From: Flavobacteriales bacterium
GTDB taxonomy: Bacteria; Bacteroidota; Bacteroidia; Flavobacteriales; Schleiferiaceae
Length of the DNA stretch: 64,000 nucleotides
Reading direction: 5' to 3'
Assembly: GCA_017795025.1 (NCBI GenBank)
Contig: CP051243.1
Location: forward strand, 3,186,897-3,250,896
Position 1 is the first letter of the stretch; every line of letters begins with the position of its first letter. The notes below the pieces were generated by a model. It saw only the letters and a list, made by a program, of their open reading frames with translations, was not told the origin of the DNA and searched no databases. Below, one piece after another: positions 9,464 to 41,829 of the stretch. The translations under genes were made by a program, and so were the position numbers.

Positions 9464-9900
9464 AAAAGGCCAAGCTGATTATCTTATTACTACTAAGCTC
9501 GGCCTTAGCGCCTTTATCAGCTCAAGTAGCGGTTTCGTATTACCCCTTGGAATCCACCTTTAGCATTAGTAGTGATACCGAGCAATTACTTTGGGCCGAC
9601 CTTAGACTAGAAACCAACACCTTTATTGGTTTGATGAATACGGAGCTGCAGCTGATGTGGAATTGGCGCAGGAGCAAATGGCTCAATTATTACAGCGGCT
9701 TGGGTTTTAATTTTAAGCCCTTTTATGCGGCTTCTGATTTGAGTTTTTTAAATGCCTACGTGCTATCAACCGGAATACGCCTTAAACCTTGGCAAGCACA
9801 GCCTGGCTTTCAGGTTATTGTAGAATTAGCGCCATTTCTTTCCGAATCTTGGGATGCCGCCCGATTAAGGTCCAGCTTCGGCGTGGCCTATAATTTTTAG
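9460..9900 (+). CDS. Hypothetical secreted protein, probable small outer-membrane beta-barrel
   Basis: 146 residues with a signal peptide (hydrophobic ~5-18, cleavage after LSAQ at ~19-22) and alternating aromatic/hydrophobic strands ending in a C-terminal Phe (GVAYNF), as in beta-barrel outer-membrane proteins. It starts inside the xylanase stop codon (ATGA), so it is translationally coupled to it. Not recognised as a named family. Its stop shares 4 bp with the convergent gene downstream. Confidence 0.6.
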   Translation: MKKAKLIILLLLSSALAPLSAQVAVSYYPLESTFSISSDTEQLLWADLRLETNTFIGLMNTELQLMWNWRRSKWLNYYSGLGFNFKPFYAASDLSFLNAYVLSTGIRLKPWQAQPGFQVIVELAPFLSESWDAARLRSSFGVAYNF

Positions 9901-10778
9901 GTGAGAAAGGCTAAGCCAACAATCCCACCAATAATCATAATCCGGTAGAGGTAATTAAGGTAGTGAAAGTGTTCCTTTTTTTCGGCAAAAGCCAAGAGGC
10001 CCGCGCTAAAGAATAAACCCGCTAATCCCAAGGCCAGGTAGTAGCCAATGGCGGTAAAACCTACCTTATAAAAAATGGCCGCCACGGGAATTAAACCCGT
10101 CATGGTGAAGAAAGCCACTATCCACTTGGTGCGTTTTAAGCCTAGGGTTGCTGGTAAGCTAGGGTAACCTAAAATAACATCTCCCTTTAGCGCTTCTAAA
10201 TCCTTTACAATTTCCCGAATAAATATCACCAGCAAAATGAAGCTTACATAGGTGAGGATTAATAAATCACGTAAGTGGAAATACAGGAAGATGGCAAAGA
10301 AGGGGGTAATACTCAAGACTGCAGCCATTAGGTTTCCGAGGAAGGTGATTTTTTTAAGCTTATGCGAATAAAACCAAAGGGCGAAGTTAAAAGCCGCAAA
10401 GAATAGAAATACATTAAAACTTACGCTGGCCCCTAGCAGCACACCAATGGTTGCAAATAAGAAGTACAGCCGCAGGGTGGTGCTTTGCCTTAAAATTTTC
10501 TCGTAGAGGGTTTTATCGGGTCGATTGATTAAGTCTCTTTCGAGGTCGTAAAAATTATTGATGATGTAGCCGGCCGCCACCGAGAAAAGAGAAGCGAAAA
10601 CAATGGCGTGCACACGAAAATCGAGCAATAACCATTTCCAATCATGGGGGTCATTGAGCACAAATAATACCGCTAGATATTGGGCGAGGGCTAAAAAAAA
10701 GATGTTGTACCACCGCACCAGAGATAATAGTGCGGAGAGCTTAAAGATTAAGATCTTGTCTCTCCGGCGCAGTGCCAT
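9897..10778 (-). CDS. UbiA-family prenyltransferase, (di)geranylgeranylglyceryl-phosphate type
   Basis: 293 residues with about eight membrane segments. Both Asp-rich motifs of the UbiA superfamily are present: NFYDLERD at 75-82 and DLEALKGD at 193-200; they bind the prenyl-diphosphate through magnesium. The pattern resembles bacterial proteins annotated as geranylgeranylglycerol-phosphate geranylgeranyltransferase (DGGGP synthase-like) rather than menA or ubiA. The gene is the last of an operon after mevalonate kinase and diphosphomevalonate decarboxylase (start directly after the kinase stop), which fits an isoprenoid-lipid role. A geranylgeranylglyceryl-phosphate synthase gene lies at 41083-41829. 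Other UbiA substrates (a quinone or haem precursor) cannot be excluded. Confidence 0.85.
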   Translation of the reverse strand: MALRRRDKILIFKLSALLSLVRWYNIFFLALAQYLAVLFVLNDPHDWKWLLLDFRVHAIVFASLFSVAAGYIINNFYDLERDLINRPDKTLYEKILRQSTTLRLYFLFATIGVLLGASVSFNVFLFFAAFNFALWFYSHKLKKITFLGNLMAAVLSITPFFAIFLYFHLRDLLILTYVSFILLVIFIREIVKDLEALKGDVILGYPSLPATLGLKRTKWIVAFFTMTGLIPVAAIFYKVGFTAIGYYLALGLAGLFFSAGLLAFAEKKEHFHYLNYLYRIMIIGGIVGLAFLT

Positions 10779-11717
10779 TTAAAGACGATAAATCACTTCG
10801 GTGTCGTAGCCTTTGAGCATTTCTTGGGCCTTATCGAAATCGGGAGTAAAGCCGAGTACAAATCCACCACCTCCACTGCCGCAGAGCTTTAAATAGTAGG
10901 CATTCGTTTCAATTCCTTGACGCCATAATTCTTTAACCGAATGGGGAATCATCGGGCTGAAATTTTCGAAAACCAGATTACTGAGCTGTTTGAGGTTGTT
11001 AAAGAGCGGCTTGGTATCTCCCTTTAAGAAGGCTGCAATACAAGCATCATTGTATTTGGTAAACTGCTCCTTCATTACTTTACGGAAACCTTCATGCTTC
11101 ATCTTCTCCATAAAGATGTTTACCATAGGTTGCGTTTCCCCAGGTTGGCCGCTGTTTAAAAGGAAAATTGCTCCTTTCCCTTCTTGCTTGGCTGGGATTT
11201 GTACGGTGCCAAGTTGATCCTTGGATTCGATGAGAACAGGAAGCTTTAGGTAGCAAATGAGCGGATCTAAACCACTGCTTTTGCCGTGGAAATAAGATTC
11301 CATCTGACCTAAAATCTGTTTCAACTTTTGGATATTCTCCTTGCTGATGTCTTCCTCCGGATCGATACGGTTAATGGCGTAACGATCGTAAATAGCGGCG
11401 CATAAGGCTCCGCTGCTGCCTACCCCATAACCTTCCGGAATGGAACTATCGAAATAAAAATTTTGGTTGAGGTCTTTTTCAAAAGCCGCTAAATCGAGCT
11501 TCGCGATGGCCTCGCCACTAGATTGTAATTCACTTAGATAATGGAAGAACTTTCGTAAGCTTTCGTTGGAACGTTGAGCGGATCCGCTAAGCGCTGCCTC
11601 CTGCTTAAAGGCCCCTTGATAATAGTTGTAAGGAACCGATAAACCTTGTGCATCGTTAATGATTCCATATTCCCCGAAGAGGAGAATTTTAGCGTAGTAA
11701 AGCGGATTGTTCTTCAT
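10779..11717 (-). CDS. Mevalonate kinase-like GHMP kinase
   Basis: 312 residues. A GHMP-kinase ATP-binding motif PEGYGVGSSGALCAA is visible at ~101-115, and the C-terminal motif LCGSGGGGFVLGF near 277-289. Phosphorylates mevalonate in the mevalonate route to isopentenyl diphosphate. The start at 11717 begins MKNNPLYYAKILLFGEYG, the usual N-terminus; it overlaps the upstream stop as TAATG. A farther in-frame Met at 11756 would reach 40 bp into the upstream gene. The order decarboxylase - kinase - UbiA is typical of Flavobacteriia. The same fold could also act on phosphomevalonate, so the substrate is inferred from context. Confidence 0.85.
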   Translation of the reverse strand: MKNNPLYYAKILLFGEYGIINDAQGLSVPYNYYQGAFKQEAALSGSAQRSNESLRKFFHYLSELQSSGEAIAKLDLAAFEKDLNQNFYFDSSIPEGYGVGSSGALCAAIYDRYAINRIDPEEDISKENIQKLKQILGQMESYFHGKSSGLDPLICYLKLPVLIESKDQLGTVQIPAKQEGKGAIFLLNSGQPGETQPMVNIFMEKMKHEGFRKVMKEQFTKYNDACIAAFLKGDTKPLFNNLKQLSNLVFENFSPMIPHSVKELWRQGIETNAYYLKLCGSGGGGFVLGFTPDFDKAQEMLKGYDTEVIYRL

Positions 11718-12760
11718 TACATCAGTTTCGTTGGACCGTTCCCAACCCGGTCGCAAATATACTCCCCATTATTTAAATAGAGTTTAATTTCCTTGTTAAC
11801 GAAATTCAGGGCCTCTTGTTCGATATGCTTGGGATACAGTAAATGGACGTTAGCTCCGGCATCCAAGGTGAAGTACAATGGCTTTTGACTTTCTCTTCTA
11901 AATTCCCATATCAACTCGATAATTTTCAAGGTATTGGGCTTCATTAAAATGAAGTAGGGTTGAGAGCTCATCATCATAGCGTGCAGGGTTAGCGCCTCAT
12001 GTTCCACTAAATTCCCAAATGCTTCTAAATCACCCTTGGCCAGTATCTTTTGCAAGTTTGCTAGGTTATGATGAGCCTGGGCGAAGCGCTGCTGGGCAAA
12101 GGGGTGTCCCTTCATTAAGCCATGACCAGCGGTGCTACTGACGGCCTTTTGTCCTTTTTCTACTAAAAGAATAGTGTCGCAGAACTCATTAAAGATAGGG
12201 TCTACTTTTCCTTGATAGGGAATCGCGTATTCGTCGCTACTCTCTGCTATTCCTTCCGTTTTTCCCCACAACCCTAAAGGACCATATACGGATCTACTGG
12301 CGGAGCCAGATCCCAATCGAGACCATTCGCTAGCTTTTTGGAAAAAAGCGCTTGGGCTCATAACTTTTCCCTGTGGAGATAGGGATAATAAACAAAGGGC
12401 TAAGGCCGACATTCCGCTGGCAGAACTGGCAATACCGCTGCTATGAGGAAAGCTATTATAGGTGTGAATGCTAAACTTGCGACCCTTGATAAAATCGAGT
12501 TCCGAAGCAATGCGTCCTAAAAACTTTTGAATTTTCGGCTTAAAGTCTTCTGCCTTTCGGTAGTCTAAAAATACCTCAAAGTCGAAATCACCCCTTCCGC
12601 TTTCTTCCAATATTTCAAGCTTCGTTTCCGTAAAGCTTTCGGAGAGCGTAAAACTTAAACTGGGATTAGCCGGAAGCTGAGGGTCGTATTTACCCCAATA
12701 TTTTACCAGAGCAATATTAGAGGGGCTGCGCCAACTGGAGGCATTTTCAATCATATGCAT
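11717..12760 (-). CDS. mvaD: Diphosphomevalonate decarboxylase
   Basis: 347 residues of the GHMP superfamily. Typical N-terminal block WRSPSNIALVKYWGKYD at ~10-26, ATP-binding loop PHSSGIASSASGMSA at ~107-121, and the SGSASRSVYGPLGLW block at ~152-166, all characteristic of diphosphomevalonate decarboxylase. It makes isopentenyl diphosphate from mevalonate diphosphate with ATP. It is the first gene of the leftward mevalonate operon. A second Met two codons later (12754) is an equally possible start. Confidence 0.92.
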   Translation of the reverse strand: MHMIENASSWRSPSNIALVKYWGKYDPQLPANPSLSFTLSESFTETKLEILEESGRGDFDFEVFLDYRKAEDFKPKIQKFLGRIASELDFIKGRKFSIHTYNSFPHSSGIASSASGMSALALCLLSLSPQGKVMSPSAFFQKASEWSRLGSGSASRSVYGPLGLWGKTEGIAESSDEYAIPYQGKVDPIFNEFCDTILLVEKGQKAVSSTAGHGLMKGHPFAQQRFAQAHHNLANLQKILAKGDLEAFGNLVEHEALTLHAMMMSSQPYFILMKPNTLKIIELIWEFRRESQKPLYFTLDAGANVHLLYPKHIEQEALNFVNKEIKLYLNNGEYICDRVGNGPTKLM

Positions 12761-12797
12761 AAAATGAGAAGGTCTAACCTAATTCTGCCAGAAAGGT

Positions 12798-13670
12798 TTA
12801 GGCGCTCATCGTTTCTGCCTCGCGATGAATTTTTTTCACCAAACCTTGGAGCACCTTACCTGGTCCAACCTCAATAAAGGTGGTGGCCCCATCGGCAACC
12901 ATATTTTGTACGCTTTGCGTCCATTTTACTGCACCTGTAAGTTGAGCAATCAAGTTGGCCTTGATGGTTTCTGGGTCGCTAACTGGTGTTGTGCTCACGT
13001 TTTGGTAAACCGGACAAATGGGCTTGTTAATGGTGGTATTCTTAATCGCTTCAGCGAGTTTTTCTTCTGCAGGCTTCATTAATGGGGAGTGAAAAGCCCC
13101 ACCAACTGGTAAAACTAAGGCGCGTTTTGCACCGTTTTCCTTCATCAATTCGCAAGCCGCTTCTACCGCAGGAACTGATCCCGAAATTACTAATTGACCC
13201 GGGCAGTTATAATTGGCAGGTACTACAATGCCGTCGATTTGATTACAAAGCTCTTCCACTTTTTCATCGGCCAAGCCTAAAACGGCAGCCATGGTACTGG
13301 GCTCTGCCTCACAAGCTTCTTGCATCGCTTGGGCCCGAGCGGCTACCAAACGAAGTCCATCTTCAAAAGAAAGGGCTCCATTAGCAACTAAAGCACTGAA
13401 CTCTCCTAAGGAGTGACCCGCAACCATATCGGGAGCAAAGTCATTAAGGCTCTTGGCTAAGATTACCGAATGCAAAAAGATAGCCGGTTGCGTTACCTTG
13501 GTCTGCTTAAGGTCTTCGGCCGATCCCTCAAACATAATATCAGTAATGCGAAAGCCTAAAATTTCATTAGCCTTTTCAAATAGGGCTTTGGCTTCTGCGG
13601 AACCTTCATAGAGGTCTTTACCCATACCGGTAAACTGAGCCCCTTGACCGGGGAAAATGTATGCTTTCAT
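12798..13670 (-). CDS. fabD: Malonyl-CoA:ACP S-malonyltransferase
   Basis: 290 residues, full length for FabD. Loads malonyl from CoA onto acyl carrier protein in fatty-acid synthesis. Seen: PGQGAQFTGMG at 7-17, the nucleophile in GHSLGEFSA (Ser87), the catalytic His in GAFHSPLM (His194), and the C-terminal FIEVGPGKVLQGL. It lies 37 bp upstream of mvaD on the same strand and may be cotranscribed with the mevalonate genes. Confidence 0.95.
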   Translation of the reverse strand: MKAYIFPGQGAQFTGMGKDLYEGSAEAKALFEKANEILGFRITDIMFEGSAEDLKQTKVTQPAIFLHSVILAKSLNDFAPDMVAGHSLGEFSALVANGALSFEDGLRLVAARAQAMQEACEAEPSTMAAVLGLADEKVEELCNQIDGIVVPANYNCPGQLVISGSVPAVEAACELMKENGAKRALVLPVGGAFHSPLMKPAEEKLAEAIKNTTINKPICPVYQNVSTTPVSDPETIKANLIAQLTGAVKWTQSVQNMVADGATTFIEVGPGKVLQGLVKKIHREAETMSA

Positions 13671-13824
13671 ATGCTTAATTGGTTAAATGTCGCTAGGATT
13701 AAAACGCTGCGTTTATTTCAAATTCGAAAATAAGAGTTTGTGAACGAAAACCACTGCTCGATTCCAATTGCTCTAAAAAAGGCGCGGCCTTAAAGGGCAT
13801 GTTCCCAAATTAGGAAACATGCTA

Positions 13825-13852
13825 AACCCCATACTTATAGTGGTGAGGGGTT
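13825..13852 (-). terminator. Possible hairpin terminator after the QueD-like gene
   Basis: AACCCC (13825-13830) and GGGGTT (13847-13852) pair, with extra inner pairing, just past the stop of the leftward gene. A second hairpin, arms about 13797-13803 and 13816-13822 (GCATGTT/AACATGC), follows. No long U-run is present, so support is moderate. Confidence 0.4.
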
Positions 13853-13853
13853 C

Positions 13854-14267
13854 TCATTCCCCAAAATACTCCACCGCATTATTGATGGTTTCCTCTAATC
13901 GGATGCGATGCAATTGGCAGTCATGCTTAGCGATCGCCGGAGCAAGAATTTTCCAAAACTCTTCCGCCAAAACCTCGGTAGAGGCAAATTTTCCCCGCAT
14001 GAAATCTACATCATGGTTGAGGTTGGCATGATCTACCTTATCAATAATTTGCCTTTGGATGATTTCTTTAAGGTCAACCAAATTCATCACAAAGCCAGTA
14101 TCTGGGTTTATCTCTCCTTTTACGGTGACGATGAGGGTGAAGTTATGACCGTGAAAATTCTTATTGGCACATTTCCCAAAAACCGCATCGTTTTGAGCTT
14201 CGGTCCAATTGGGATTGTAGAGTTGATGCGCGGCGCTAAACCGCTCTTTACGTTCAATGTAAATCAT
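13854..14267 (-). CDS. queD: 6-carboxytetrahydropterin/6-pyruvoyltetrahydropterin synthase homologue
   Basis: 137 residues of the T-fold QueD/PTPS family. Zinc-binding His residues are visible at 14 (FSAAHQLY), 39 and 41 (NFHGHNFTL), and the catalytic Cys33 lies in GKCANKNFHG. A family Glu occurs near the C-terminus in RIRLEETINNAVEYFG. The Cys with one QueD-like zinc site fits queuosine precursor synthesis (dihydroneopterin triphosphate to 6-carboxytetrahydropterin); a PTPS activity cannot be ruled out by sequence alone. No other queuosine genes are in the window. Confidence 0.85.
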   Translation of the reverse strand: MIYIERKERFSAAHQLYNPNWTEAQNDAVFGKCANKNFHGHNFTLIVTVKGEINPDTGFVMNLVDLKEIIQRQIIDKVDHANLNHDVDFMRGKFASTEVLAEEFWKILAPAIAKHDCQLHRIRLEETINNAVEYFGE

Positions 14268-14292
14268 GGGCCCTAAGGCTAAAAAATTTTGG

Positions 14293-14300
14293 CAAAGATA
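14293..14300 (-). promoter_or_regulatory. Bacteroidota -7 element (TATCTTTG) upstream of queD
   Basis: TATCTTTG on the minus strand matches the TANNTTTG consensus and lies about 26 bp ahead of the queD start. The -33 box is weak. The context is shared with the element upstream of der at 23180-23187. Confidence 0.35.
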
Positions 14301-14317
14301 GCTATTAAGGCTAGGTT

Positions 14318-14647
14318 CTACCTCAATTTCTCGTTGTTGTGGTGCCGGTCGTGATCGCGTTTGGTTTTAGCTTCCATTTTACGATCAAATGCTGCTTGTA
14401 AATCGGTATTCGTTTGATTAGCTAAGCATAGAACCACAAAAAGTACATCGGCGAGCTCTTCCCCAAGATCTTTGGCTTTATCACTTTCCTTCTCACTTTG
14501 CTCGCCATAGCGACGGGCAATGATGCGTGCCACTTCGCCAACTTCTTCGGTTAGCTGGGCCATATTTGTGAGTTCGTTGAAATAGCGTACGCCATGATTC
14601 TGTATCCAACGATCTACTTGCGATTGCAATTCCTCAATGCCTTTCAT
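14318..14647 (-). CDS. MazG-like nucleotide pyrophosphohydrolase
   Basis: 109 residues, a single MazG-type all-alpha NTP pyrophosphatase domain. The metal-binding pattern is visible as QLTEEVGEVARIIARR at ~29-44 and LGEELADVLFVVLCLAN at ~63-79. It should hydrolyse nucleoside triphosphates to monophosphate and pyrophosphate, for example cleaning up non-canonical nucleotides. The C-terminus is charged and His-rich (KTKRDHDRHHN). Its start lies 55 bp from the stop of the upstream gene. Confidence 0.85.
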   Translation of the reverse strand: MKGIEELQSQVDRWIQNHGVRYFNELTNMAQLTEEVGEVARIIARRYGEQSEKESDKAKDLGEELADVLFVVLCLANQTNTDLQAAFDRKMEAKTKRDHDRHHNNEKLR

Positions 14648-14702
14648 AAGCGCTTGTTTATTGATTTGCTAATAATCCGGCGAAGGTAAAACCTAGCAAG
14701 GC

Positions 14703-16124
14703 TTAGCGTTGCAAGTTCAAAAAATTCTTGAGGAATTCGTTGCCCCATTGTATCTGTACGAAATAAGTGCCAGCAGGGACTCCTTGACCTTGAAATCTGC
14801 CATCCCATTGAAATGCAGGATTTGTACTTTCAAAAACAGGGGTACCGTTACGATTAACTATAACAATATTGAAATTATAGGGCCCTCTATCGATATTGAG
14901 GTGATAGAAATCGTTTTGTAAATCTCCATTAGGACTAAAAAAGTTGGGTAAGATGGGCTTGGGGAAATTTAGGTCCTTAATGCTAATGGGGTATGAAATT
15001 CGGTGATTACAACCGTTACTATCGATTACCACCAATTGAATCATATAATCACCAGGCTTATATAGATGTTGCGGTTCTTTTAAGGCACTACTATCACCAT
15101 CGCCAAAATCCCATCGCCAAAATTGAACATTTCCTAAGCTAAAGTCCTCAAATTGGACATGGCTGCTGTCTGTACCCAAAAATGACCAGCCAAAATTGGC
15201 TTGTATTTCACGCAGTCGTATTTCAATATCAATAAGGCTGTCGCAAGAATTTAAGTTAGGGACTCGGTGGGTAAAAAGCGTATCAGTAGTATACCACTTT
15301 TGATAAATTAAAATAGAGTCGTTTGGGCAAATTTCATAGGAGCGTTGCGCACTTGGACTTACTTGTAAGCTTAAATTTAAACGCACAATTTGACCACAGG
15401 AACCAGCATTAGTGAGAGTGTCGAAATAGGTCCCAGCTTGATGTAGGTATTGATTATTAAACAGAATGCTATCTCCAGAACAGATGCTTTGATTTTGGAT
15501 TTGGGTATTGCCAAAGGGGCTGTAGTTGTTACCAAGGCTTAAGCAGTCTGGCGGTGAAACAGACCAGCCTCCAAGCGAGACAGAAGCGGAAGAGGGCCAA
15601 CTGTTGGTGCTATTGCCATCGGTGGCAGAATAGCGAATGCAGTTTCCATTATTTCGAACTAGTTTTTGCCATTTCAAGGCATTGGAAACACCGTTAACTC
15701 TGTTTTTCACGGCTACTCCGTAAAGACCTACCATGTCTACAAAATTGGTGGTGTTCCCTGAGGTTATGGCAATGCAGTCATCGTTGTTTACTCCGGCCAA
15801 ATTGGTACGAATGTCATCGGCGCAAGCCTTAAAGTCGCTGCTAGCCTGACTATTATTGGCATTAGAAATAATAATGCTAGCGCCTGGTGCTAAAAGGCCT
15901 AATAGTTGCTCTGAACCACTTGCTGTAGTGTTGCTGCCGTTAAAAACCTTAACATAATAATTGCTTAGGTTGATAGTGCTACTAGTTGGGTTATAAACCT
16001 TTATTGCCCAACCACTGCCGGGGTCCCAATCCACATATTCAGTAATCATCAAATCGTCGGTTTGGGCCCGAATGCAGAAAAGATTTAAGAGCAATAAGCC
16101 TGTTAAAATGAAGCGCTTTGCCAT
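14703..16124 (-). CDS. Secreted lamin-tail/PKD protein with type B T9SS sorting domain
   Basis: 473 residues. Signal peptide 1-20 (LLLLNLFCIRAQ). Domains: a lamin-tail-like domain at ~22-150 (MITEYVDWDPGSGWAIKVYN), a Cys-containing middle region, a PKD domain around 310-385 (WRWDFGDGDSSALKEPQHLY), and a gliding-motility-associated C-terminal domain, ~390-473 (PNFFSPNGDLQNDFYHL then NRNGTPVFES). The last is the type B targeting domain for export by the type IX system, so the protein is probably exported to the surface. Function unknown; adhesion is a reasonable guess only. Confidence 0.8.
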   Translation of the reverse strand: MAKRFILTGLLLLNLFCIRAQTDDLMITEYVDWDPGSGWAIKVYNPTSSTINLSNYYVKVFNGSNTTASGSEQLLGLLAPGASIIISNANNSQASSDFKACADDIRTNLAGVNNDDCIAITSGNTTNFVDMVGLYGVAVKNRVNGVSNALKWQKLVRNNGNCIRYSATDGNSTNSWPSSASVSLGGWSVSPPDCLSLGNNYSPFGNTQIQNQSICSGDSILFNNQYLHQAGTYFDTLTNAGSCGQIVRLNLSLQVSPSAQRSYEICPNDSILIYQKWYTTDTLFTHRVPNLNSCDSLIDIEIRLREIQANFGWSFLGTDSSHVQFEDFSLGNVQFWRWDFGDGDSSALKEPQHLYKPGDYMIQLVVIDSNGCNHRISYPISIKDLNFPKPILPNFFSPNGDLQNDFYHLNIDRGPYNFNIVIVNRNGTPVFESTNPAFQWDGRFQGQGVPAGTYFVQIQWGNEFLKNFLNLQR

Positions 16125-16171
16125 AGGTCGCGAAATAAAGAAAACAAAGCAACCTTAGTGTTAAGTTTAGT

Positions 16172-18328: not shown

Positions 18329-18394
18329 TTTGCAAAGGTGCAGAATCTACTGCCTTGTGCAAAAGCTTTACCTTCGTCGACCTAAATTTAGGAC

Positions 18395-19297: not shown

Positions 19298-19298
19298 G

Positions 19299-20168: not shown

Positions 20169-20300
20169 CAAGTCGGATTTCATAATCATTTCTCATTAAT
20201 TGATATAAATCTGTTGTTAAACAGGTGGTTAGGAGGGTGTTTATTTGGTGATAAAAGTGTATTTTCGAAAGCTTTTTTGCCCCAAAAAGTCTGATAGCCC

Positions 20301-34008: not shown

Positions 34009-34114
34009 AGGTATTACACAAAAATGTGTTTATTATAATAAGTGCAACTTTGCAGGATGACCTGCGTTTCTTGTAAATTGCAGGTTCTCCATAAAAGGGC
34101 CAAAATTAAGGATT

Positions 34115-35086: not shown

Positions 35087-35439
35087 TGGATGCGGGTTTA
35101 GACGAAGAGAAAAGGTATTACAGCATTGGCGAGGTGGCCGCGATGTTCGATGTAAACACCTCCCTAGTTCGCTTTTGGGAAAAGGAGTTTGATATTCTTA
35201 AACCAAAGAAGAATAAAAAGGGAAACCGACTTTTTACGCCTCGGGATGTGCAAAACCTTAAGCTTATCCACCACTTGGTTAAGGAGCGGGGTTTTACCCT
35301 TAAAGGTGCTAAAACCAAGCTGCGCGAGAACCGAGAGGACACCGCCCGCATCAGTGAGGTAGTGGATAAGCTTAAGATGATCAAACAGGCCATGGGCGAA
35401 ATTCGCAAAGGCCTAGACGCTTCCAGTGAAGAAGCTTAG
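35086..35439 (+). CDS. MerR-family transcriptional regulator
   Basis: 117 residues: N-terminal winged-helix MerR DNA-binding domain at ~10-80 (YYSIGEVAAMFDVNTSLVRFWEKEF), followed by a short helical dimerisation tail. No ligand-binding domain and no metal-sensing Cys, so it is the small MerR type common in Bacteroidota. Translationally coupled to the M23 peptidase gene (TAATG). Its stop shares 4 bp with the convergent receptor gene. Targets unknown. Confidence 0.85.
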   Translation: MDAGLDEEKRYYSIGEVAAMFDVNTSLVRFWEKEFDILKPKKNKKGNRLFTPRDVQNLKLIHHLVKERGFTLKGAKTKLRENREDTARISEVVDKLKMIKQAMGEIRKGLDASSEEA

Positions 35440-37391
35440 TAGCTAAACTTGTAACTTATTCCTGCTTGTAACCAAAGTCCAGGGAGCTCTACATTACCCC
35501 GATCAAAATAGGTTTTATTTAAGAGATTTTGACCCTTCAGGCTAAACTGAAAGGATTCCCAATTGTAGTTCAAGCTTAAATTCAAAAGCCACACCGAAGG
35601 GTAGTCCACTAAGCTATTGCTAGTAGCATCGCGGTATTGACCTTCTCGAATTTGGTAGCTCATAAAATAGAGTAGGCTAAAATGCTCCCCAAAATTTTGC
35701 GCAGCCCTTAAAGTGAGCTTGTGCCTTAAAAAGTCAAAAACATAAAGCGAACGGTATACTTCAGGATCTTGAGGAGTCGTATTTTGAAGATAGCTGTATC
35801 CCAAGTCAACGAATTTGAAGTAGGCCGAAGCAGCATCTGCCGAAAGGCCTTTTCGCAAATTAAATTCCAAGCCACCAAAATCGGCCCGACTGGTATTTCC
35901 GGCAATTAAGTTACAGGTGTCGCAAGCCTGGGTCCAGTCGATGATTTCTCGACCAGTACGGTAAAAGAGACTTACATTTCCATACCAACCTTTGCCAAAA
36001 AAGCGGCAGGCTACTTCGTAATTATAGGATTCCTCCGCTTGAAGGTTGCGACTGCCCAAAGCACCGCCCAAACGATAGAACAAATCAGTGTAAGAGGGGA
36101 GGCGGAAGGAGCGGTTAAAGCTGGCGTAAATTTTATGCGCCTTTTGAGGTCGGAAGCCCAAATTTAGAGCAGGGTATAAGCCCCAACCGAAATCGGTGTT
36201 GTGATTAGCTTGAAGAGCGGCACTTAGTTGCCAGTCCCCATAGTGTAAACGATGCTGTCCGGCAAGCGATAAATTTCGACGATCGGCACCTAAGAAGTAA
36301 TTCCCTCGGCTGTTGGGAATGTCAATTACCTGGTTTAGGCTATCGCCGAGATTATTACTTCGCACCTGCTCCTGCCGATAGTCGAAGCTAAAGGCGGTTT
36401 GTCCGAGTTTGCTTTCCCAAGATAAGTCACTTTTGATACCGAAAACATCGCTGCGGTGGTAATTATGCCCAGCGTACCAAGTGGGTGCGGTATCGTTTTC
36501 TTGGATAAAGAAGCCGTTTTGGTATTGGTAAAAGTCGGGGCCCGCCTCGCGAAAGAGTTGAAATTCGTCCCAATTTCGGCGCCAATACACTTGCTTGTCC
36601 CATTTTACCACACCTTCCGTTTGCCAATTTAAACTGGCAAAAAGGGTACGGGTAAGTTCGTACTGATCCGGGTAATTGTCGGAGTAAAAGTTTTGGGCTC
36701 CAAAGGCTTGATCGGTATAGCCACCTTGAAATTGAAGATGCTCTTTACCGAGTTCCCAATCGCTACGCAAGGCAATATTGCTGTGCTGGAAATCAGTGTT
36801 ACGTTTAAATCCAGCGCTTCTGTTATGGGAAAAGGAGAGGGAGCTTTGATGGTTTTTGCCGACTAGGTTTTGTTGCAATCGCCCTTGTAAGGTGTTAAAC
36901 TGTCCGTAGTTAAGTCCAAGCTGGGTACTATTTTGGTCTGCTTTTTTGGTGATGATATTAATCGCACCAGCAAAGGCATTGGCTCCAAAGATGTAAGATC
37001 CACCTCCGAGTAAAATTTCAATTCGTTCGATGTCCTCTTTGGCGACGGGTAGGTTCATCAAGTGATGTCCGGTTTGTGGGTCGCTAAGTCGAACTCCGTT
37101 GATGAGCACAACAACTTGCTCGAAGCTGCCACCGCGAATACTTAGGTCGGTTTGGGTGCCAAAAATGCCTCGCTGACGGGCGTCAATGCCAATGGCAAAG
37201 TCTAAGATTTCGGCAACCGTATTAACCGGAGCGTTTTGCAATTCCTCACCCGATAGAATTTGCACATTACGATTACTGTTCATCAAACTTTGCTCGAAGA
37301 GTGCTGCTGATACCGTTACGGTGTCGAGGTTAATCTGTGCACTGAGCAAAGGGCCAAAGGTCAGCATTAGTAGGAGTTTGCTGCGTTTCAT
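35436..37391 (-). CDS. TonB-dependent outer-membrane receptor, BtuB-like
   Basis: 651 residues. Signal peptide 1-19, then a plug domain at ~45-150 (NRNVQILSGEELQNAPVNTV, RQRGIFGTQTDLSIRGGSF) and a 22-strand barrel ending with Phe-Ser-Tyr. No N-terminal carboxypeptidase-like domain. It is closest in style to vitamin B12/heme-type receptors, but the substrate is not determined; cobalamin would be a guess. It is divergent from the thiamine receptor, and their promoters lie back to back between 37417 and 37479. Confidence 0.85.
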   Translation of the reverse strand: MKRSKLLLMLTFGPLLSAQINLDTVTVSAALFEQSLMNSNRNVQILSGEELQNAPVNTVAEILDFAIGIDARQRGIFGTQTDLSIRGGSFEQVVVLINGVRLSDPQTGHHLMNLPVAKEDIERIEILLGGGSYIFGANAFAGAINIITKKADQNSTQLGLNYGQFNTLQGRLQQNLVGKNHQSSLSFSHNRSAGFKRNTDFQHSNIALRSDWELGKEHLQFQGGYTDQAFGAQNFYSDNYPDQYELTRTLFASLNWQTEGVVKWDKQVYWRRNWDEFQLFREAGPDFYQYQNGFFIQENDTAPTWYAGHNYHRSDVFGIKSDLSWESKLGQTAFSFDYRQEQVRSNNLGDSLNQVIDIPNSRGNYFLGADRRNLSLAGQHRLHYGDWQLSAALQANHNTDFGWGLYPALNLGFRPQKAHKIYASFNRSFRLPSYTDLFYRLGGALGSRNLQAEESYNYEVACRFFGKGWYGNVSLFYRTGREIIDWTQACDTCNLIAGNTSRADFGGLEFNLRKGLSADAASAYFKFVDLGYSYLQNTTPQDPEVYRSLYVFDFLRHKLTLRAAQNFGEHFSLLYFMSYQIREGQYRDATSNSLVDYPSVWLLNLSLNYNWESFQFSLKGQNLLNKTYFDRGNVELPGLWLQAGISYKFSY

Positions 37392-37416
37392 TTTGTGTTT
37401 TCTGCGTTTCAGCCGG

Positions 37417-37424
37417 CAAAGCTA
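37417..37424 (-). promoter_or_regulatory. Bacteroidota -7 element (TAGCTTTG) for the BtuB-like receptor
   Basis: TAGCTTTG on the minus strand, 25 bp before the start codon at 37391; the divergent promoter has the same -7 sequence 47 bp away. Confidence 0.4.
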
Positions 37425-37447
37425 CTGGCATTGTTTAATTCTGAACT

Positions 37448-37479
37448 ATTGCATTCTAAAAAGTCTTGCCCTAGCTTTG
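37448..37479 (+). promoter_or_regulatory. Bacteroidota promoter ahead of the TPP riboswitch
   Basis: A -33 box ATTG (37448-37451) and a -7 element TAGCTTTG (37472-37479) are 20 bp apart. The riboswitch starts a few bases after the -7 element. Confidence 0.45.
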
Positions 37480-37485
37480 CGGCCT

Positions 37486-37582
37486 CTCACGGGGTGTCCT
37501 TTATACACTATGAAGGGCTGAGATTATACCCAGGATGATTCACCTCATCCGCACCTGATCCGGGTAATGCCGGCGTAGGGAT
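37486..37582 (+). promoter_or_regulatory. TPP riboswitch (THI element)
   Basis: The conserved blocks of the thiamine-pyrophosphate aptamer occur in order: ACGGGGTG at 37489-37496, GGCTGAGAT at 37516-37524, ACCC just after, the variable stem with CCTCATCCG, then CACCTGATCCGGGTAATGCC and GGCGTAGGGA ending at 37581. It lies upstream of a TonB receptor gene and downstream of a promoter. Thiamine pyrophosphate binding should lower expression of the receptor. Confidence 0.95.
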
Positions 37583-37638
37583 CGAAGCAGACGCTTCAGC
37601 AAATAATGTTTAACAGCAAAAGGAGCATACCCCGGTTT

Positions 37639-37666
37639 CTTTTCATAACTCATGTTTTATGAAAAG
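37639..37666 (+). promoter_or_regulatory. Hairpin overlapping the start codon: candidate riboswitch expression platform
   Basis: Arms CTTTTCATAA (37639-37648) and TTATGAAAAG (37657-37666) are a perfect 10-bp inverted repeat with an 8-nt loop. The right arm contains the ATG at 37659-37661, so the hairpin would hide the start codon. No intrinsic terminator with a U-run is seen between the aptamer and the gene, which favours control of translation. Inferred from sequence only. Confidence 0.55.
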
Positions 37667-39737
37667 GCAACTACTTGTTCTTGCTATTTTAGGTTTCGGG
37701 CCCAACCTTATAAAGGCCCAAAGTGACAACAGCGACAGCTTAAAGGTCGAACAACTGGAGGAGGTTACCATTTCCTCAGTAAGGGCCACCAGCGATGCTC
37801 CAGTGGCTCAGGTTACGGTTAACCGGAAGATGATTCAAAGAAACTTTCAAGGTCAGGATGCCGCTTTCCTTTTGGAGCGCCTCAGTCCCTCTTTAGTGAC
37901 GTACTCAGAGTCCGGAACCGGTTTTTCCAATTACGGTCAGATGCGCCTGCGGGGTATCGATCAAACTCGAATTAATATCACCCTTAATGGCGTGCCGCTA
38001 AACGACATGATTGACCAGGGGGTTTTCTTTTCGAATTTCACAGATTTTGGCAATAGCATCGAATCGGTGCAAGTGCAGCGTGGAGTGGGGACCTCAACCA
38101 ATGGGGTGGCCTCCTATGCAGGGTCCATTAATTTTGAATCGCTTTCGCTCACCAAATCGGCTCCCAGTGCCGAAGTTCAGCTTACGGGTGGCTCCTTTAA
38201 TACCCTGCGAACCAGTGCAGAAGTGCAAACTGGACTAATGGAAAACCGAACCAGTTTTTACGCTCGGATGAGCCGATTGCAAAGCGATGGTTACCGTTAC
38301 CATTCTGGAACGGAATCGAACTCCTTGTTCTTTTCGGGCGGATATTTTGGAGATAAACATGCTTTGAAGTTTACCGGATTTGCCGGTCGAACCGAGAATG
38401 ATTTGGCCTACACCCCGGTTCCTCTTTCTTTGATAGAGCAAGATCCACGCACTAATGTTTTATCCGAAAATGATATTGATGACTTTGGGCAGTATCTATT
38501 TCAATTGCAGCATACTTGGCGAACAGGGGAAAAGAGTGCTTTAGTAAACACCTTGTACTATGGAGGAGCAGGAGGTGATTTCCCTTATTCCTATCCCGAT
38601 ACCACCAATGCCACGGGCTTAAGCACCATAAACTACCCGCTTTACAATAACCACTATGGTTGGATGTCGAATTTTAACTGGAAGAACAATTTGGGATCTT
38701 GGAATTTTGGGGCGCACATTTACACTTTCCAAAGGGAGAATATTGAGTATGTAGAACCCAATAGCACCAACCCCTATTACCAAGATCAAAGCACCAAAGA
38801 GGAGCTGGCGGCCTTTGCGAAATGGTCCAAAGAATTTGGGCCTATGAAATTTTATGCTGATGTCCAAGCCAGGCAGGTGCAGTTAAGTTTAGGAGCGGAT
38901 GCTAGCTTTTTAGGCGAAGAGCCCAATATTCCGACTCGCGAGTATTTGTTCCTTAATCCTAAACTAGGTTTGAGCTATGATTTAGCCGCTAACTGGCAGG
39001 TGTACGGTTCTTTTGGTCGCAGTGGTCGCGAACCTACTCGCACCGACATTTTAGGTGGGCTGTCGGTAACGGCTTTCAATATTACTGATGTTAGGAATGT
39101 AAATAGTGTGGACCCGGAGTTTGTGAATGACTTTGAATTCGGGACACGTTGGCAAAATGAAGTCTTGAATATTGACTTCAATTTATACTACATGGACTTC
39201 GAGAATGAAATTGCGCCCATTGGTGTATACATTCCCGAAGGCTTTTATCAAGTTTATGAGAATCAGGCGCCCAGCTTCCGCAGAGGGGCAGAGCTTATGT
39301 GGGTTTATACCCCTTTAAAAGGATGGAGTATAAATGGTCAATTTGCATACTTGGACGCTCGTATTAGCAGCTATGCACCCGCAAATAGTAATGTGGTATA
39401 CGAGAATATTCGTCCAATTTTAAGCCCGGAGTTTAACGGTAGTATTCAGGTGGTATACGAACCCATTGCTGATTTAAGCCTAGCTGTTCGCGCCCGTTAT
39501 TTGAGTGATCAGTATATGGAGCTTAGCAATGATCCTAACTTAAAGGTTCCGGCCTCCATGATATTTGATTTTACGGCGAGCTACCAGTTTTACCGCGAGC
39601 ATGAATTAAGTCTGCAGCTTAATAATCTCAGCAATGAACTGTATTATACTTATGGCGCCCCAAGTTGGGATGGCAGTCCAGCCTATTTGGTGCAAGCGCC
39701 CATTAACTTTTACGCTACACTAAGACTAGTTTTCTAG
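37659..39737 (+). CDS. TonB-dependent receptor, thiamine uptake (OMR1-like)
   Basis: 692 residues. Signal peptide 1-20 (LAILGFGPNLIKAQ), TonB-box-like segment EEVTISSVRA at ~34-43, plug domain at ~50-150 (QGQDAAFLLERLSPSL, MRLRGIDQTRINITLNG), and a barrel ending with a C-terminal Phe. The TPP riboswitch in the leader indicates transport of thiamine or a thiamine-derived compound across the outer membrane. The convergent operon 20 bp downstream holds pnuT-like and NadR-like genes, the usual partners of this receptor type in Bacteroidota. Confidence 0.88.
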   Translation: MKRQLLVLAILGFGPNLIKAQSDNSDSLKVEQLEEVTISSVRATSDAPVAQVTVNRKMIQRNFQGQDAAFLLERLSPSLVTYSESGTGFSNYGQMRLRGIDQTRINITLNGVPLNDMIDQGVFFSNFTDFGNSIESVQVQRGVGTSTNGVASYAGSINFESLSLTKSAPSAEVQLTGGSFNTLRTSAEVQTGLMENRTSFYARMSRLQSDGYRYHSGTESNSLFFSGGYFGDKHALKFTGFAGRTENDLAYTPVPLSLIEQDPRTNVLSENDIDDFGQYLFQLQHTWRTGEKSALVNTLYYGGAGGDFPYSYPDTTNATGLSTINYPLYNNHYGWMSNFNWKNNLGSWNFGAHIYTFQRENIEYVEPNSTNPYYQDQSTKEELAAFAKWSKEFGPMKFYADVQARQVQLSLGADASFLGEEPNIPTREYLFLNPKLGLSYDLAANWQVYGSFGRSGREPTRTDILGGLSVTAFNITDVRNVNSVDPEFVNDFEFGTRWQNEVLNIDFNLYYMDFENEIAPIGVYIPEGFYQVYENQAPSFRRGAELMWVYTPLKGWSINGQFAYLDARISSYAPANSNVVYENIRPILSPEFNGSIQVVYEPIADLSLAVRARYLSDQYMELSNDPNLKVPASMIFDFTASYQFYREHELSLQLNNLSNELYYTYGAPSWDGSPAYLVQAPINFYATLRLVF

Positions 39738-39757
39738 CTATACTACCAGCCAAACCT

Positions 39758-40288
39758 TTAATCTGATAATATTCGCAAACTTTGAAGGGCGTCCAAGGCA
39801 TTCTTGAGGCGCTCTTCTTTTTGCCCTTTAATAATCCGGTAGGGGCGCCCCATCTTTTCAATCCAATTGCGGTGTTCTTCAAAGATAGCCAGTCGGTTAG
39901 ATGGGTTTTCACGTAAGGGATCATCTTCCCATTCCAAATCTGGATAGCACAAGAGATAGTGATGTTCAGACTCCCTTTTTAAGCTTGAATCCAAAAGGGG
40001 AAAGCTGGTTTTAAAAACGCGTTCTGACCAAACTTTAAAGTTGATCGAGTCGGTGTCGAGGATTAGAAGCTTACTCTCGGATTGGGCCTTCGCTTTCGCT
40101 TGATGGTTAAGATGCCCACGATAAATTTTTTGAAGGACCTCGAAGTCGTATTGCGGTCCATTTTCTTCAAGGTATAGGCGTGCGAACTCTTCTGTCCAAG
40201 GAGAATTTAGAGCTTCGCTGAGGCTCTTGCAAAGTTTAGATTTACCTGAAGACTCCGGTCCGGTAATTACGATAAAATGCCGTTCCAT
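39758..40288 (-). CDS. NadR-like P-loop ATPase/kinase, thiamine-locus associated
   Basis: 176 residues. P-loop GPESSGKSK at 10-18, then a DTDS motif at ~77-80 and a RPYRIIKG-type end, as in the C-terminal ribosylnicotinamide kinase domain of NadR. Homologues next to PnuT-type transporters and TPP riboswitch-linked receptors in Bacteroidota may phosphorylate the imported vitamin and so trap it; NR kinase activity is the alternative. It overlaps the pnuT-like gene by 22 bp and is the last gene of the leftward operon. Confidence 0.75.
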   Translation of the reverse strand: MERHFIVITGPESSGKSKLCKSLSEALNSPWTEEFARLYLEENGPQYDFEVLQKIYRGHLNHQAKAKAQSESKLLILDTDSINFKVWSERVFKTSFPLLDSSLKRESEHHYLLCYPDLEWEDDPLRENPSNRLAIFEEHRNWIEKMGRPYRIIKGQKEERLKNALDALQSLRILSD

Positions 40289-40821
40289 TGAATAAAGCCG
40301 TTGATGGAGAGAAGGGTGTAGAGCACAAAGAGTAGGGCGGTAAGCTTAAGTCCTCTTTTAAAGTAGAGGTATACACTAGCAGCGTCGATGATAATCCAAT
40401 ATACCCAGTTTTCGGGATAAAAGTTAATCATCAAAATGGTGGCGATAATACTAAATACGGTAGTAAAAGAATCGAGGCTAGGTATCGCCGAATCTGTGTA
40501 GGATCGAAGTAAGGAAGCGGTTACGAAGGTGATTAAACTTCCCCCGCCAACTAATACCAAATGAATTTGCCAACTTAGGCTGGCTAAGGTTTCGAAGGTG
40601 CTACCCCAATTCCAAAAGCCATAAGCGGCGCTGCCTAAATAAAATAGCTGCAGGGCCCACTCGGCGTAAATTTTCCGGCGAAAGCAAATGATCAAATAAA
40701 GGGTAGAGGAGAGGCCCGCAAACAGCCAGCACCAAATGCTTTCATAGGTGAGTAGAAAGGTGTAAAGCAAGCTGCTTATTACAGCGGCCACCTCTAGGGG
40801 ATTCCATTTTGTCTTAGTCAA
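40267..40821 (-). CDS. pnuT: PnuC/PnuT-family vitamin transporter
   Basis: 184 residues with about six to seven membrane segments. The PnuC-family signature aromatic motif AAYGFWNWG is visible at ~63-71. PnuC homologues facilitate diffusion of nicotinamide riboside, PnuT that of thiamine. The neighbours (thiamine-binding protein, NadR-like ATPase, riboswitch-controlled receptor) favour thiamine. No riboswitch is seen directly upstream of this operon. Confidence 0.8.
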   Translation of the reverse strand: MTKTKWNPLEVAAVISSLLYTFLLTYESIWCWLFAGLSSTLYLIICFRRKIYAEWALQLFYLGSAAYGFWNWGSTFETLASLSWQIHLVLVGGGSLITFVTASLLRSYTDSAIPSLDSFTTVFSIIATILMINFYPENWVYWIIIDAASVYLYFKRGLKLTALLFVLYTLLSINGFIQWNGILS

Positions 40822-41081
40822 TAGTCCTTAATCGTCATTTCGGATAAGTCCCCCTTCAAAACCTTGATTACAAAGGGACTTTGCCCACTTTCAAAGGATC
40901 GACTTATTTCTTTTTGCAGGATAGGAAAAATTACATCAGCCGGACCAAATATTTGGGTGCTAATACTATTAACCGCAATTTTAAGTCTGGGGTGTTGGTG
41001 CAAGCGTTCCAGGAAATCATCTACACCATCTAAATAGTTATCCCGCAAAGGATACTTCGAAATTTCTACGCTTATGTCCAT
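40818..41081 (-). CDS. MTH1187/YkoF-like thiamine-binding family protein
   Basis: 87 residues. The start ISVEISKYPLRDNY and the block INSISTQIFGPADVIFPILQKEI match the small ferredoxin-like-fold family (MTH1187/YqgV) related to YkoF, which binds thiamine or its hydroxymethylpyrimidine part. It starts 1 bp past the GGGP-synthase stop and overlaps the next gene by 4 bp. Family assignment is by visual pattern. Confidence 0.7.
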   Translation of the reverse strand: MDISVEISKYPLRDNYLDGVDDFLERLHQHPRLKIAVNSISTQIFGPADVIFPILQKEISRSFESGQSPFVIKVLKGDLSEMTIKDY

Positions 41082-41082
41082 G

Positions 41083-41829
41083 CTAGAGTTGGTGAATGGC
41101 CTCGGCGATTTCCGCCATAGCTTCGGGTTGTTTTTCGAATAAATTACCTACCACGATTACATCGGCGCCCGCTTCGGCGATTTGACGAGCTTCGGCGGCA
41201 CTTCGGATTCCACCTCCCACAATGATGGGACGGTCTATAGATTTACGAATCGCAGAAATCATTTCGGGGCTCACGGTTTTTTCGGAGCCACTGCCACCAT
41301 CAATATAAAAGTAGCGCAAGCCTAGCATTTCTCCCGCCATAGCGGTACAGGCGGCAATGTCGGGCTTATTATGGGGGATAGCCTGACTATTGCTCATGTA
41401 AATTGCCGTGGTGGTCGTGCCGCAATCTACCAGCATGTACGCAGTAGGTAGTACTTCTAGTTTTGCGTTTTTTAAATAGGGAGCCGCTATTACGTGGTTG
41501 CCAATTAGTAAGTCCGCATTACGGCCCGAAATAAGGCTGAGAAACAAGATGCCATCGGCCTGCTCAGAGATTTGTAATACACTTCCAGGAAAGAGTAAAA
41601 CGGGTAAGTTACAATTGGCCTTCACTGTTTTTAAGCAGTCCTCCAAGCCATCTCTACTCAGTAAGCTTCCACCAACGAAAATGAGATCGGCGCCATTATT
41701 ACTGGCTTTTTGGCAAAGGTCGATTAAGGCCAATTCCGAAGGTTTGTCCGGGTCGATTAATACCGCTAAGAGCTTTTTCCCACTCTCTTTTGCGCGATCA
41801 ATGATATGCGAAACTTTAGGCATTTCCAT
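41083..41829 (-). CDS. Geranylgeranylglyceryl-phosphate synthase (PcrB/GGGPS family)
   Basis: 248 residues, a TIM barrel. Seen: LLAVLIDPDKP at ~20-30 and IFVGGSLL for substrate binding, FPGSVLQIS, YFYIDGGSGSEKTVSPEM with the phosphate-binding loop, and IVGGGIRSAAEA with VIVVGN. The length and DPDKP pattern fit the group II enzymes of archaea and Bacteroidota, which join glycerol-1-phosphate to geranylgeranyl diphosphate, rather than the heptaprenyl PcrB of Bacillus. The gene heads the operon that carries the thiamine genes. A glycerol-1-phosphate dehydrogenase is not in the window. Confidence 0.9.
   Translation of the reverse strand: MEMPKVSHIIDRAKESGKKLLAVLIDPDKPSELALIDLCQKASNNGADLIFVGGSLLSRDGLEDCLKTVKANCNLPVLLFPGSVLQISEQADGILFLSLISGRNADLLIGNHVIAAPYLKNAKLEVLPTAYMLVDCGTTTTAIYMSNSQAIPHNKPDIAACTAMAGEMLGLRYFYIDGGSGSEKTVSPEMISAIRKSIDRPIIVGGGIRSAAEARQIAEAGADVIVVGNLFEKQPEAMAEIAEAIHQL

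Follow-up and report, generated by a model that had tools for sequence, protein, structure and literature searches.

The two isoprenoid genes of the window, which encode a geranylgeranylglyceryl phosphate synthase (GGGPS) and a UbiA-superfamily prenyltransferase (UbiA-A), probably do not work together. From sequence comparisons, we give a probability of about 0.7 to the reading that GGGPS pairs with a second paralog outside the window, UbiA-B, and that UbiA-A is a paralog with another acceptor. The window is the whole stretch of 64,000 nt that was analysed (contig CP051243.1, positions 3,186,897–3,250,896, assembly GCA_017795025.1; Flavobacteriales bacterium, Schleiferiaceae). A sequence-only reading of this DNA had given the exact coordinates of both open reading frames, 41083–41829 and 9897–10778 (minus strand each), and had taken the products for successive enzymes of an archaeal-type ether-lipid pathway. 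The two genes are about 30 kb apart and do not share an operon. Judging from its homology to the Flavobacterium johnsoniae enzyme, GGGPS would join GGPP to glycerol phosphate. The product most likely passes to UbiA-B to give digeranylgeranylglyceryl phosphate (DGGGP), and UbiA-A probably prenylates a different acceptor with a mevalonate-derived donor.

GGGPS

The GGGPS gene (41083–41829, 248 aa) encodes a predicted active enzyme for the first ether bond. Over its full length, the protein is above the cut-offs of the curated models NF003198 (288.9 vs. 247 bits), TIGR01769 (190.8 vs. 161.55), and TIGR01768 (177 vs. 113.25); it is also above that of PF01884 (139.8 vs. 23.9). The earlier claim of a GGGPS in the window is supported, and the enzyme is of the Bacteroidota kind. 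The closest solved structure by sequence is F. johnsoniae GGGPS (4jej; residues 10–234, 189.5 bits), which belongs to group IIb according to PMC9385802. The glycine-rich loops are kept between the two proteins. At position 177, the window enzyme has Asp, whereas the F. johnsoniae and M. thermautotrophicus enzymes have Glu; 11 of the 32 distinct rows in the alignment share this Asp.

GGGPS is flanked by genes for a 4'-phosphopantetheinyl transferase-like protein (41895–42572, minus strand; PF01648 and PF17837 above cut-off) and a PnuC-like nicotinamide riboside transporter (40267–40821, minus strand; TIGR01528 78.5 bits, cut-off 42.45). Across 30 loci, the own locus included, homologs of the phosphopantetheinyl transferase and of AhcY recur beside GGGPS in two and PnuC in one. 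As this comparison used short flanks and one-way tblastn, the GGGPS neighbours were not taken as a functional clue.

UbiA-A and the mevalonate operon

UbiA-A (9897–10778, 293 aa) directly follows the genes for a mevalonate kinase-like protein (MVK, 10779–11756) and a diphosphomevalonate decarboxylase-like protein (MvaD, 11717–12760), both on the minus strand and assigned from profile matches. For MVK, the best NCBIfam model, TIGR00549, gave 74.6 bits against a cut-off of 163, with the GHMP kinase domains above their cut-offs. For MvaD, TIGR01240 gave 159.6 bits (cut-off 171), and PF22700 and PF18376 were above cut-off. The term mevalonate operon, already used in the sequence-only reading, is retained despite the two scores below cut-off because the gene order recurs across loci: an MVK homolog is present at 78 of 80 named UbiA-A loci, and MVK is upstream on the same strand in all 51 further loci holding both genes. 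FabD (malonyl-CoA:ACP transacylase; 12798–13670, minus strand; TIGR00128 340.5 bits, cut-off 260.9) is a neighbour of this operon and outside the proposed function.

All 123 same-order genomes with UbiA-A carry MVK, and outside family f16 UbiA-A is found in 123 of 125 MVK-bearing genomes. The threshold for UbiA-A was 165 bits on A1, which 116 genomes pass clearly (lowest listed score 173). The other seven have low-scoring A1 matches (E 1e-25 to 1e-31) and lack an A2 match at 1e-15; they were counted by score, not by place or neighbouring genes. Without the 38 genomes of family f16 (about 0.6 Mb each), phi between UbiA-A and MVK is 0.98; it is 0.91 if the seven low-scoring matches are dropped. 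The near-constant presence with MVK suggests that its function is no less constant than the mevalonate pathway.

Sequence, structure, and phylogeny of UbiA-A

UbiA-A belongs to the UbiA superfamily (PF01040 81.8 bits, cut-off 34.2). Its closest solved structure by sequence is the DGGGP synthase (DGGGPS) of M. jannaschii, MjDGGGPS (6m31, E 2.8e-11), and a fold search with the AF2 model (pLDDT 86.1) led to the same enzyme (7bpu/6m31). The UbiA fold is common to UbiA-A and MjDGGGPS (6m31, 6m34, 7bpu), with 22% identity in the structural match. UbiA-A is, however, below the cut-off of every DGGGPS model, with 110.3 of 278 bits for NF009512, 91.1 of 296 for NF009521, and 83.5 of 353 for NF009522. 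The best NCBIfam model is NF009513 "prenyltransferase" (154 bits, cut-off 288).

The first motif, N-x3-D-x3-D, is present as N74, D78, and D82. In the third motif, D193, A196, and D200 occupy the positions of MjDGGGPS Asp180, Asp183, and Asp187. The window protein keeps the equivalents of N62, D66, D70, Y125, K130, D180, and D187 but differs from MjDGGGPS in the replacement of Asp183 by Ala and in having no link to the presence of GGGPS. Asp183 matters in MjDGGGPS according to PMC9385802. Only one of 129 aligned UbiA-A rows has Asp at this position; it comes from a genome of the same family as the window (G023). Because MjDGGGPS is the nearest structure and most catalytic residues are kept, UbiA-A may possess residual or altered DGGGPS activity.

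The second-best structure by sequence is the chlorophyll synthase ChlG (9sau, 9sas; E 2.1e-7). In the printed alignment, ChlG has Ser at the Asp183 position and hence, like UbiA-A, no Asp. On the ChlG models, UbiA-A scores 46.1 and 28.3 bits, far short of the respective cut-offs of 313 and 436.

In the UbiA tree, UbiA-A forms its own clade (support 100/100, stem 1.33). Because the outgroup rows have very long branches, the tree was read for the split between A and B and not for where the group is rooted. The B clade also contains one single-type row (G073).

The second paralog UbiA-B

The same genome encodes a DGGGPS-like UbiA outside the window, UbiA-B (C1:830118–831050), about 2.4 Mb from GGGPS along the contig. 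UbiA-A and UbiA-B are the two paralogs of the DGGGPS group among seven UbiA-superfamily genes; MenA, CyoE, and a DPPR synthase are also among the seven. UbiA-B carries all three motifs (N60, D64, D68, Y128, K133, D197, D200, D204). The Asp183 position is Asp in all 40 UbiA-B rows (31 distinct sequences, 30 genomes) and in all 24 single-type UbiA rows; two genomes with a UbiA and no GGGPS (G071 and G077, both with all three Asp) were left out of these groups. The best model for UbiA-B is NF009512, where it reaches 223 bits. As this is below the cut-off given above for the same model, we term it DGGGPS-like only.

UbiA-B lies in a recurring string of genes, DUF2520, KdsC-like HAD, UbiA-B, and Maf. 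The HAD protein matches the KdsC phosphatase family (TIGR01670 108.1 bits, cut-off 106.95) and may serve LPS instead. DUF2520 was considered as a G1P-forming dehydrogenase for its NADP-oxidoreductase-like character and was provisionally set aside: the top structure match, 3d1l, bears the label BF3122, which we take to be a Bacteroides fragilis locus tag, and the Bacteroides control genome has no GGGPS match.

Co-occurrence across genomes

Presence and absence lists for 246 genomes of the same order were entered by hand. UbiA-B was called among the A2 matches listed, down to E 3.8e-40, with rows at UbiA-A places excluded; two genomes with 162.7 and 147.9 bits (G035 and G256) were counted as bearing it, and one of family f15 (G225, E 3.8e-30) was excluded as ambiguous. 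Among these listed matches, GGGPS and UbiA-B occur together in 100 genomes, GGGPS alone in 4, UbiA-B alone in 15, and neither in 127 (phi 0.847). UbiA-B thus accompanies GGGPS in 100 of 104 GGGPS genomes, and eight of the 15 genomes (of 115 with UbiA-B) that have no GGGPS are in family f15. The corresponding numbers for GGGPS and UbiA-A, with UbiA-A called at 165 bits, are 56 with both, 48 with GGGPS only, 60 with UbiA-A only, and 82 with neither (phi 0.115); hence, UbiA-A does not follow GGGPS. With the listed A2 matches, GGGPS and UbiA-B occur without UbiA-A in 44 genomes, GGGPS and UbiA-A without UbiA-B in none, and UbiA-A without either in 58. Fisher p values overstate the significance because the genomes are related.

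In a sample of 118 genomes of the phylum, all 45 with a GGGPS match above 100 bits also hold a non-A UbiA match (at least 59 bits on A1, and one partial match at 38). In 34 of these 45 genomes, the non-A UbiA was aligned, and all 34 carry the three Asp. G071 and G077 belong to this sample and have a non-A UbiA with the full Asp set and no GGGPS. On an MVK tree, from which G157 (UbiA-A ORF cut) and G061 (MVK ORF cut) were dropped, GGGPS and UbiA-B change together in all four independent pairs where both differ (sign test, p = 0.125). Two more pairs show loss of GGGPS with retention of UbiA-B.

Other genes of the proposed ether-lipid pathway

The sequence-only reading had proposed to look in the genome for glycerol-1-phosphate dehydrogenase (G1PDH), a CarS-like gene, and geranylgeranyl reductase. 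G1PDH was not found with PF13685, which matches AroB alone, or with NF002022 at E 0.001. The AroB gene lies between EPSP-synthase-like and proline-dehydrogenase-like ORFs, named by eye from the translations. By the reading's own criterion, the absence of G1PDH counts against the ether-lipid claim. It is not decisive, because PMC7852524 refers to work where E. coli, with no known G1PDH, produced ether lipids of the G1P type. The CarS (CDP-archaeol synthase) model PF01864 gave no match in the genome and matches in 7 of 14 control genomes. In work cited by PMC7852524, bacterial CDP-diacylglycerol synthase takes the place of CarS. For geranylgeranyl reductase, there are two candidates: two proteins are above the family model TIGR02032 (206.1 and 167.3 bits, cut-off 158.8) and PF22578 (GGR_cat), and both are far below the lipid-reductase equivalogs. 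For GGPP synthesis, the genome has two polyprenyl synthases, with all chain-length models below cut-off.

The best seven NCBI model NF002022 matches listed for the phylum sample (81–104 bits) are all in family f29, in genomes without a GGGPS match above 100 bits; the one tested of these seven (L202) is a glycerol dehydrogenase. A 46-bit match in a GGGPS genome (G067) is AroB. One genome with GGGPS and UbiA-B (G024) holds a G1PDH-like protein (L001, NF002022 109.8 bits, cut-off 413). Its gene is part of a NeuB/flippase surface-polysaccharide cluster, so the protein was not counted as lipid evidence.

Discussion

UbiA-A as the partner of GGGPS is unlikely. The two genes share a genome, MjDGGGPS is the nearest structure, mevalonate-linked UbiA is widespread in Flavobacteriales, and G023 has the Asp183 equivalent. 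However, the Asp183 equivalent is missing in 128 of 129 rows, UbiA-A follows MVK and shows almost no co-occurrence with GGGPS, genomes with UbiA-A and neither GGGPS nor UbiA-B are numerous, and a better-matching paralog exists. It is equally improbable that both paralogs are DGGGP synthases, with UbiA-A covering for an absent UbiA-B or using another prenyl length. A common tree group, the same fold, and most of the catalytic residues would fit, but none of the 104 GGGPS genomes has UbiA-A without UbiA-B, and 60 of the 116 clear UbiA-A genomes have no GGGPS and therefore no GGGP from this enzyme to prenylate. Flavobacteria respire with menaquinone, and UbiA-A is a widespread flavobacterial member of the superfamily, which would fit a prenyltransferase of haem or, as a MenA- or UbiA-type enzyme, of quinones. 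We consider such a role very unlikely because MenA (TIGR00751 279 bits, cut-off 102) and CyoE (TIGR01473 261.5 bits, cut-off 210.3) are separate genes. Consistently, the 11 NCBIfam matches of UbiA-A at E 0.01 include no MenA (TIGR00751), quinone-UbiA, or haem-O-synthase model.

For GGGPS and UbiA-B, an uncanonical branch is a tentative possibility, e.g., towards a diether that is built on G3P or dephosphorylated, or towards lipid breakdown, with no archaeal-type phospholipid. G1PDH and CarS were not found in the genome with the models above, an HAD phosphatase gene adjoins UbiA-B, and published work reports the GGGPS to be promiscuous for G3P (PMC7852524) and raises the reverse reaction as one possibility (PMC6431249). 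The two proteins above the geranylgeranyl-reductase family cut-off and the KdsC-family match of the HAD protein speak against it. Such a branch is compatible with the pairing of GGGPS and UbiA-B.

We retain GGGPS and UbiA-B as a plausible ether-lipid pair on the present sequence evidence. Of the proposed archaeal-type potential, GGGPS, a credible DGGGPS-like UbiA, and two reductase-family proteins stand; the window UbiA as partner does not. For UbiA-A, it is about an even call that it represents a new UbiA subfamily, an old DGGGPS-like duplicate nearly always without the Asp183 equivalent, which was recruited into the Flavobacteriales mevalonate operon and makes an undescribed GGGPS-independent prenylated lipid, pigment, or cofactor. 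The idea of archaeal-type lipids in Bacteroidota rests on counts of GGGPS and DGGGPS homologs. As UbiA-A resembles DGGGPS yet is inherited independently of GGGPS, it may inflate or misplace such counts. With two UbiA paralogs, one GGGPS, and cultivable members in the order, the roles are separable in principle.

The ether-lipid potential of the FCB group is already published (Coleman 2019; Villanueva 2021). Villanueva et al. (PMC7852524) describe GGGPS combined with a DGGGPS-like UbiA, as here, in Ca. Cloacimonetes, and Coleman et al. (PMC6431249) do so for FCB phyla. Like the present genome, these groups have geranylgeranyl-reductase homologs, and G1PDH and CarS were not found. The present genome differs in that the likely partner is far from GGGPS and that a second, mevalonate-linked paralog can be mistaken for it.

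Properties of the two window genes

Both genes of the pair that the sequence-only reading had proposed for archaeal-type ether lipids are real, with open reading frames on the minus strand at 41083-41829 and 9897-10778. The former encodes geranylgeranylglyceryl phosphate synthase (GGGPS). The protein passed four curated GGGPS models, the glycine-rich loops are kept in the alignment, and the nearest solved structure by sequence search is F. johnsoniae GGGPS (4jej). Asp177 occupies a site that is Glu in the F. johnsoniae and M. thermautotrophicus enzymes; among the 32 distinct rows of the alignment, 11 have Asp there.

The gene at 9897-10778 encodes a member of the UbiA superfamily (PF01040), here UbiA-A, and lies directly downstream of homologs of mevalonate kinase (MVK) and diphosphomevalonate decarboxylase. 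A glycosyl hydrolase family 10 gene (xylanase-like; 8327-9463, plus strand) adjoins this mevalonate operon. The nearest solved structure by sequence is M. jannaschii DGGGPS (MjDGGGPS), the UbiA enzyme of the step after GGGPS. The same protein was nearest in a fold search with the AF2 model (mean pLDDT 86.1; 7bpu/6m31, TM 0.67/0.70). No DGGGPS model cut-off was reached by UbiA-A in the curated profile scan. Among the best 80 of 504 relatives, the nearest come from Flavobacteriales/Bacteroidetes MAGs (87%, 85%, 79%, and 74%), and the UbiA of an Owenweeksia MAG stands at 72%.

D183 position: A review describes strongly reduced activity for the Ala mutants of D66, D70, D180, D183, and D187 in MjDGGGPS (PMC9385802). 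At the D183 position, Asp is found in 1 of 129 UbiA-A rows of the alignment, next to N (99), A (13), T (7), S (5), G (2), M (1), and Y (1); the window protein has Ala196. All 40 rows of the paralog UbiA-B carry Asp (31 distinct sequences, 30 genomes), as do all 24 rows of single-type UbiA. The sole Asp among the UbiA-A rows belongs to G023, a genome of the window's own family (locus L269:1984-2862, minus strand). Hence, D183 is not lost without exception, and this one residue is not enough to delimit the group. The tree separates a UbiA-A clade, with support of 100/100 and a stem of 1.33, from the UbiA-B clade (support 100/86).

Isoprenoid genes elsewhere in the genome

The window genome consists of one contig of 3.44 Mb. 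A PF01040 search gave seven UbiA-superfamily genes, the window's own included, and the other six were scanned against curated models. The set comprises CyoE, MenA, decaprenyl-phosphate phosphoribosyltransferase, two PRK13592-like proteins, UbiA-B, and UbiA-A. The PRK13592 matches, at C1:1729482-1730156 and C1:2121490-2122158, are weak (67 and 112.5 against a cut-off of 443). UbiA-B is a second DGGGPS-like UbiA, encoded outside the window on the minus strand at C1:830118-831050 (L153:9119-10051). It scored 223 bits on the DGGGPS model NF009512, twice the 110 bits of UbiA-A, and missed the cut-off of 278. Its gene stands in the string DUF2520, KdsC-like HAD, UbiA-B, and Maf, and overlaps the Maf and HAD phosphatase genes by a few bases. 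Same-strand neighbours were Maf (18), HAD (13), and DUF2520 (12) in 36 loci of UbiA-B or single type, and Maf (10), HAD (8), and DUF2520 (8) in 10 Flavobacteriales UbiA-B loci.

The genome has two polyprenyl synthases. Three further genes of the archaeal-type route had been suggested for a search. CarS was not found in this genome, and neither was glycerol-1-phosphate dehydrogenase (G1PDH), as the sole PF13685 match is AroB and NF002022 gave none at E 0.001. For geranylgeranyl reductase, two proteins exceed the family cut-off and score far under the lipid-reductase equivalogs. Another genome of the order, G024, encodes a G1PDH-like protein (L292:7936-8946, minus strand; NF002022 109.8 bits against a cut-off of 413) near NeuB, HAD, and flippase-like genes. 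It perhaps provides glycerol-1-phosphate for a surface polysaccharide.

Co-occurrence with GGGPS and with MVK

The order-level sample of 246 genomes has GGGPS in 104, UbiA-A in 116 (plus 7 with low-scoring matches), and UbiA-B, among the matches listed, in 115. GGGPS and UbiA-B occur together in 100 genomes, GGGPS only in 4, UbiA-B only in 15, and neither in 127 (phi 0.847). For UbiA-A, the corresponding counts are 56, 48, 60, and 82 (phi 0.115, or 0.066 when the 7 low-scoring matches are counted). None of the 246 genomes combines GGGPS and UbiA-A without UbiA-B; 44 have GGGPS and UbiA-B without UbiA-A, and 58 have UbiA-A without either of the others.

The 19 exceptions to the GGGPS/UbiA-B pairing include 11 genomes that are <90% complete and 8 that are not. 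Four of the latter, all of family f15 (G037, G161, G169, and G212), keep UbiA-B without GGGPS. The f15 genomes with UbiA-B in which GGGPS was not found are these four and G176, G182, G200, and G218. These genomes do not follow the pairing and may put UbiA-B to another use.

On an MVK tree of 50 UbiA-A-bearing genomes, GGGPS changes seven times and UbiA-B five times. In six independent well-supported pairs, UbiA-B changed in the same direction in four, in the opposite direction in none, and did not differ in two. With only four pairs, a p of 0.05 is out of reach (p 0.125), so the tree-corrected evidence for GGGPS/UbiA-B is consistent but thin.

MVK occurs in 163 of the 246 genomes, including all 123 with UbiA-A. 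MVK occurs in the absence of UbiA-A in 40 genomes, of which 38 belong to family f16; because their genomes measure 0.6 Mb, the f16 members are probably insect endosymbionts. The MVK/UbiA-A association has a phi of 0.71 over all 246 genomes, 0.98 without f16, and 0.91 when the 7 low-scoring matches are also left out. GGGPS is not associated with MVK (phi -0.22 in 246 genomes, -0.13 without f16). An MVK homolog is present in 78 of 80 UbiA-A loci, the exceptions being L119, a short contig, and L075, which is not short. In 51 further loci with both genes, MVK always lies upstream on the same strand, and its coordinates place it within 171 bases in 47. The 80 loci also contain a pseudouridine synthase (67) and, on the strand opposite UbiA-A, TspO (38; L043-L122), which may point to a role connected with porphyrins or carotenoids.

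Among 118 genomes sampled across the phylum, PF01884 at E 0.001 matched 73, of which 45 exceed 100 bits; matches of 19-25 bits are partial and were left out of the GGGPS count. The UbiA-A query matched 68 genomes, 18 of them weakly (family f29, 27-41 bits). All 45 GGGPS genomes have a non-A-type match of at least 59 bits, except G133 (partial, 38 bits). All three third-motif Asp residues are present in 34 of 34 aligned UbiA from these genomes; the other 11 were assigned by score alone. G028, G131, and G124 have only an A-type match and lack GGGPS, and G071 and G077 have a match without GGGPS.

Discussion

The sequence-only reading is partly supported: it stands for GGGPS and is not supported for its partner, as the window UbiA tracks GGGPS at phi 0.115, in contrast to 0.847 for UbiA-B. 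UbiA-B is the likelier partner of GGGPS. For the window UbiA, the best reading is a divergent, putative prenyltransferase linked to the mevalonate pathway. A potential for isoprenoid ether lipids would rest on GGGPS and UbiA-B rather than on the window UbiA.

A distinction between a mevalonate-linked UbiA paralog and the GGGPS partner was not found in the open-access literature searched, which does not prove its absence. The general ether-lipid idea is already published. GGGPS and DGGGPS orthologs are reported in 12 of 12 surveyed FCB phyla, and G1PDH among these in Fibrobacteres and Cloacimonetes only (Coleman et al., PMC6431249). Villanueva et al. (PMC7852524) report egsA/araM and CarS as missing from four Cloacimonetes MAGs. 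The Cloacimonetes GGGPS/DGGGPS pair was active in E. coli, and mixed membranes were proposed for FCB bacteria in the same study, a proposal restated in the introduction of a 2026 paper (PMC13400652).
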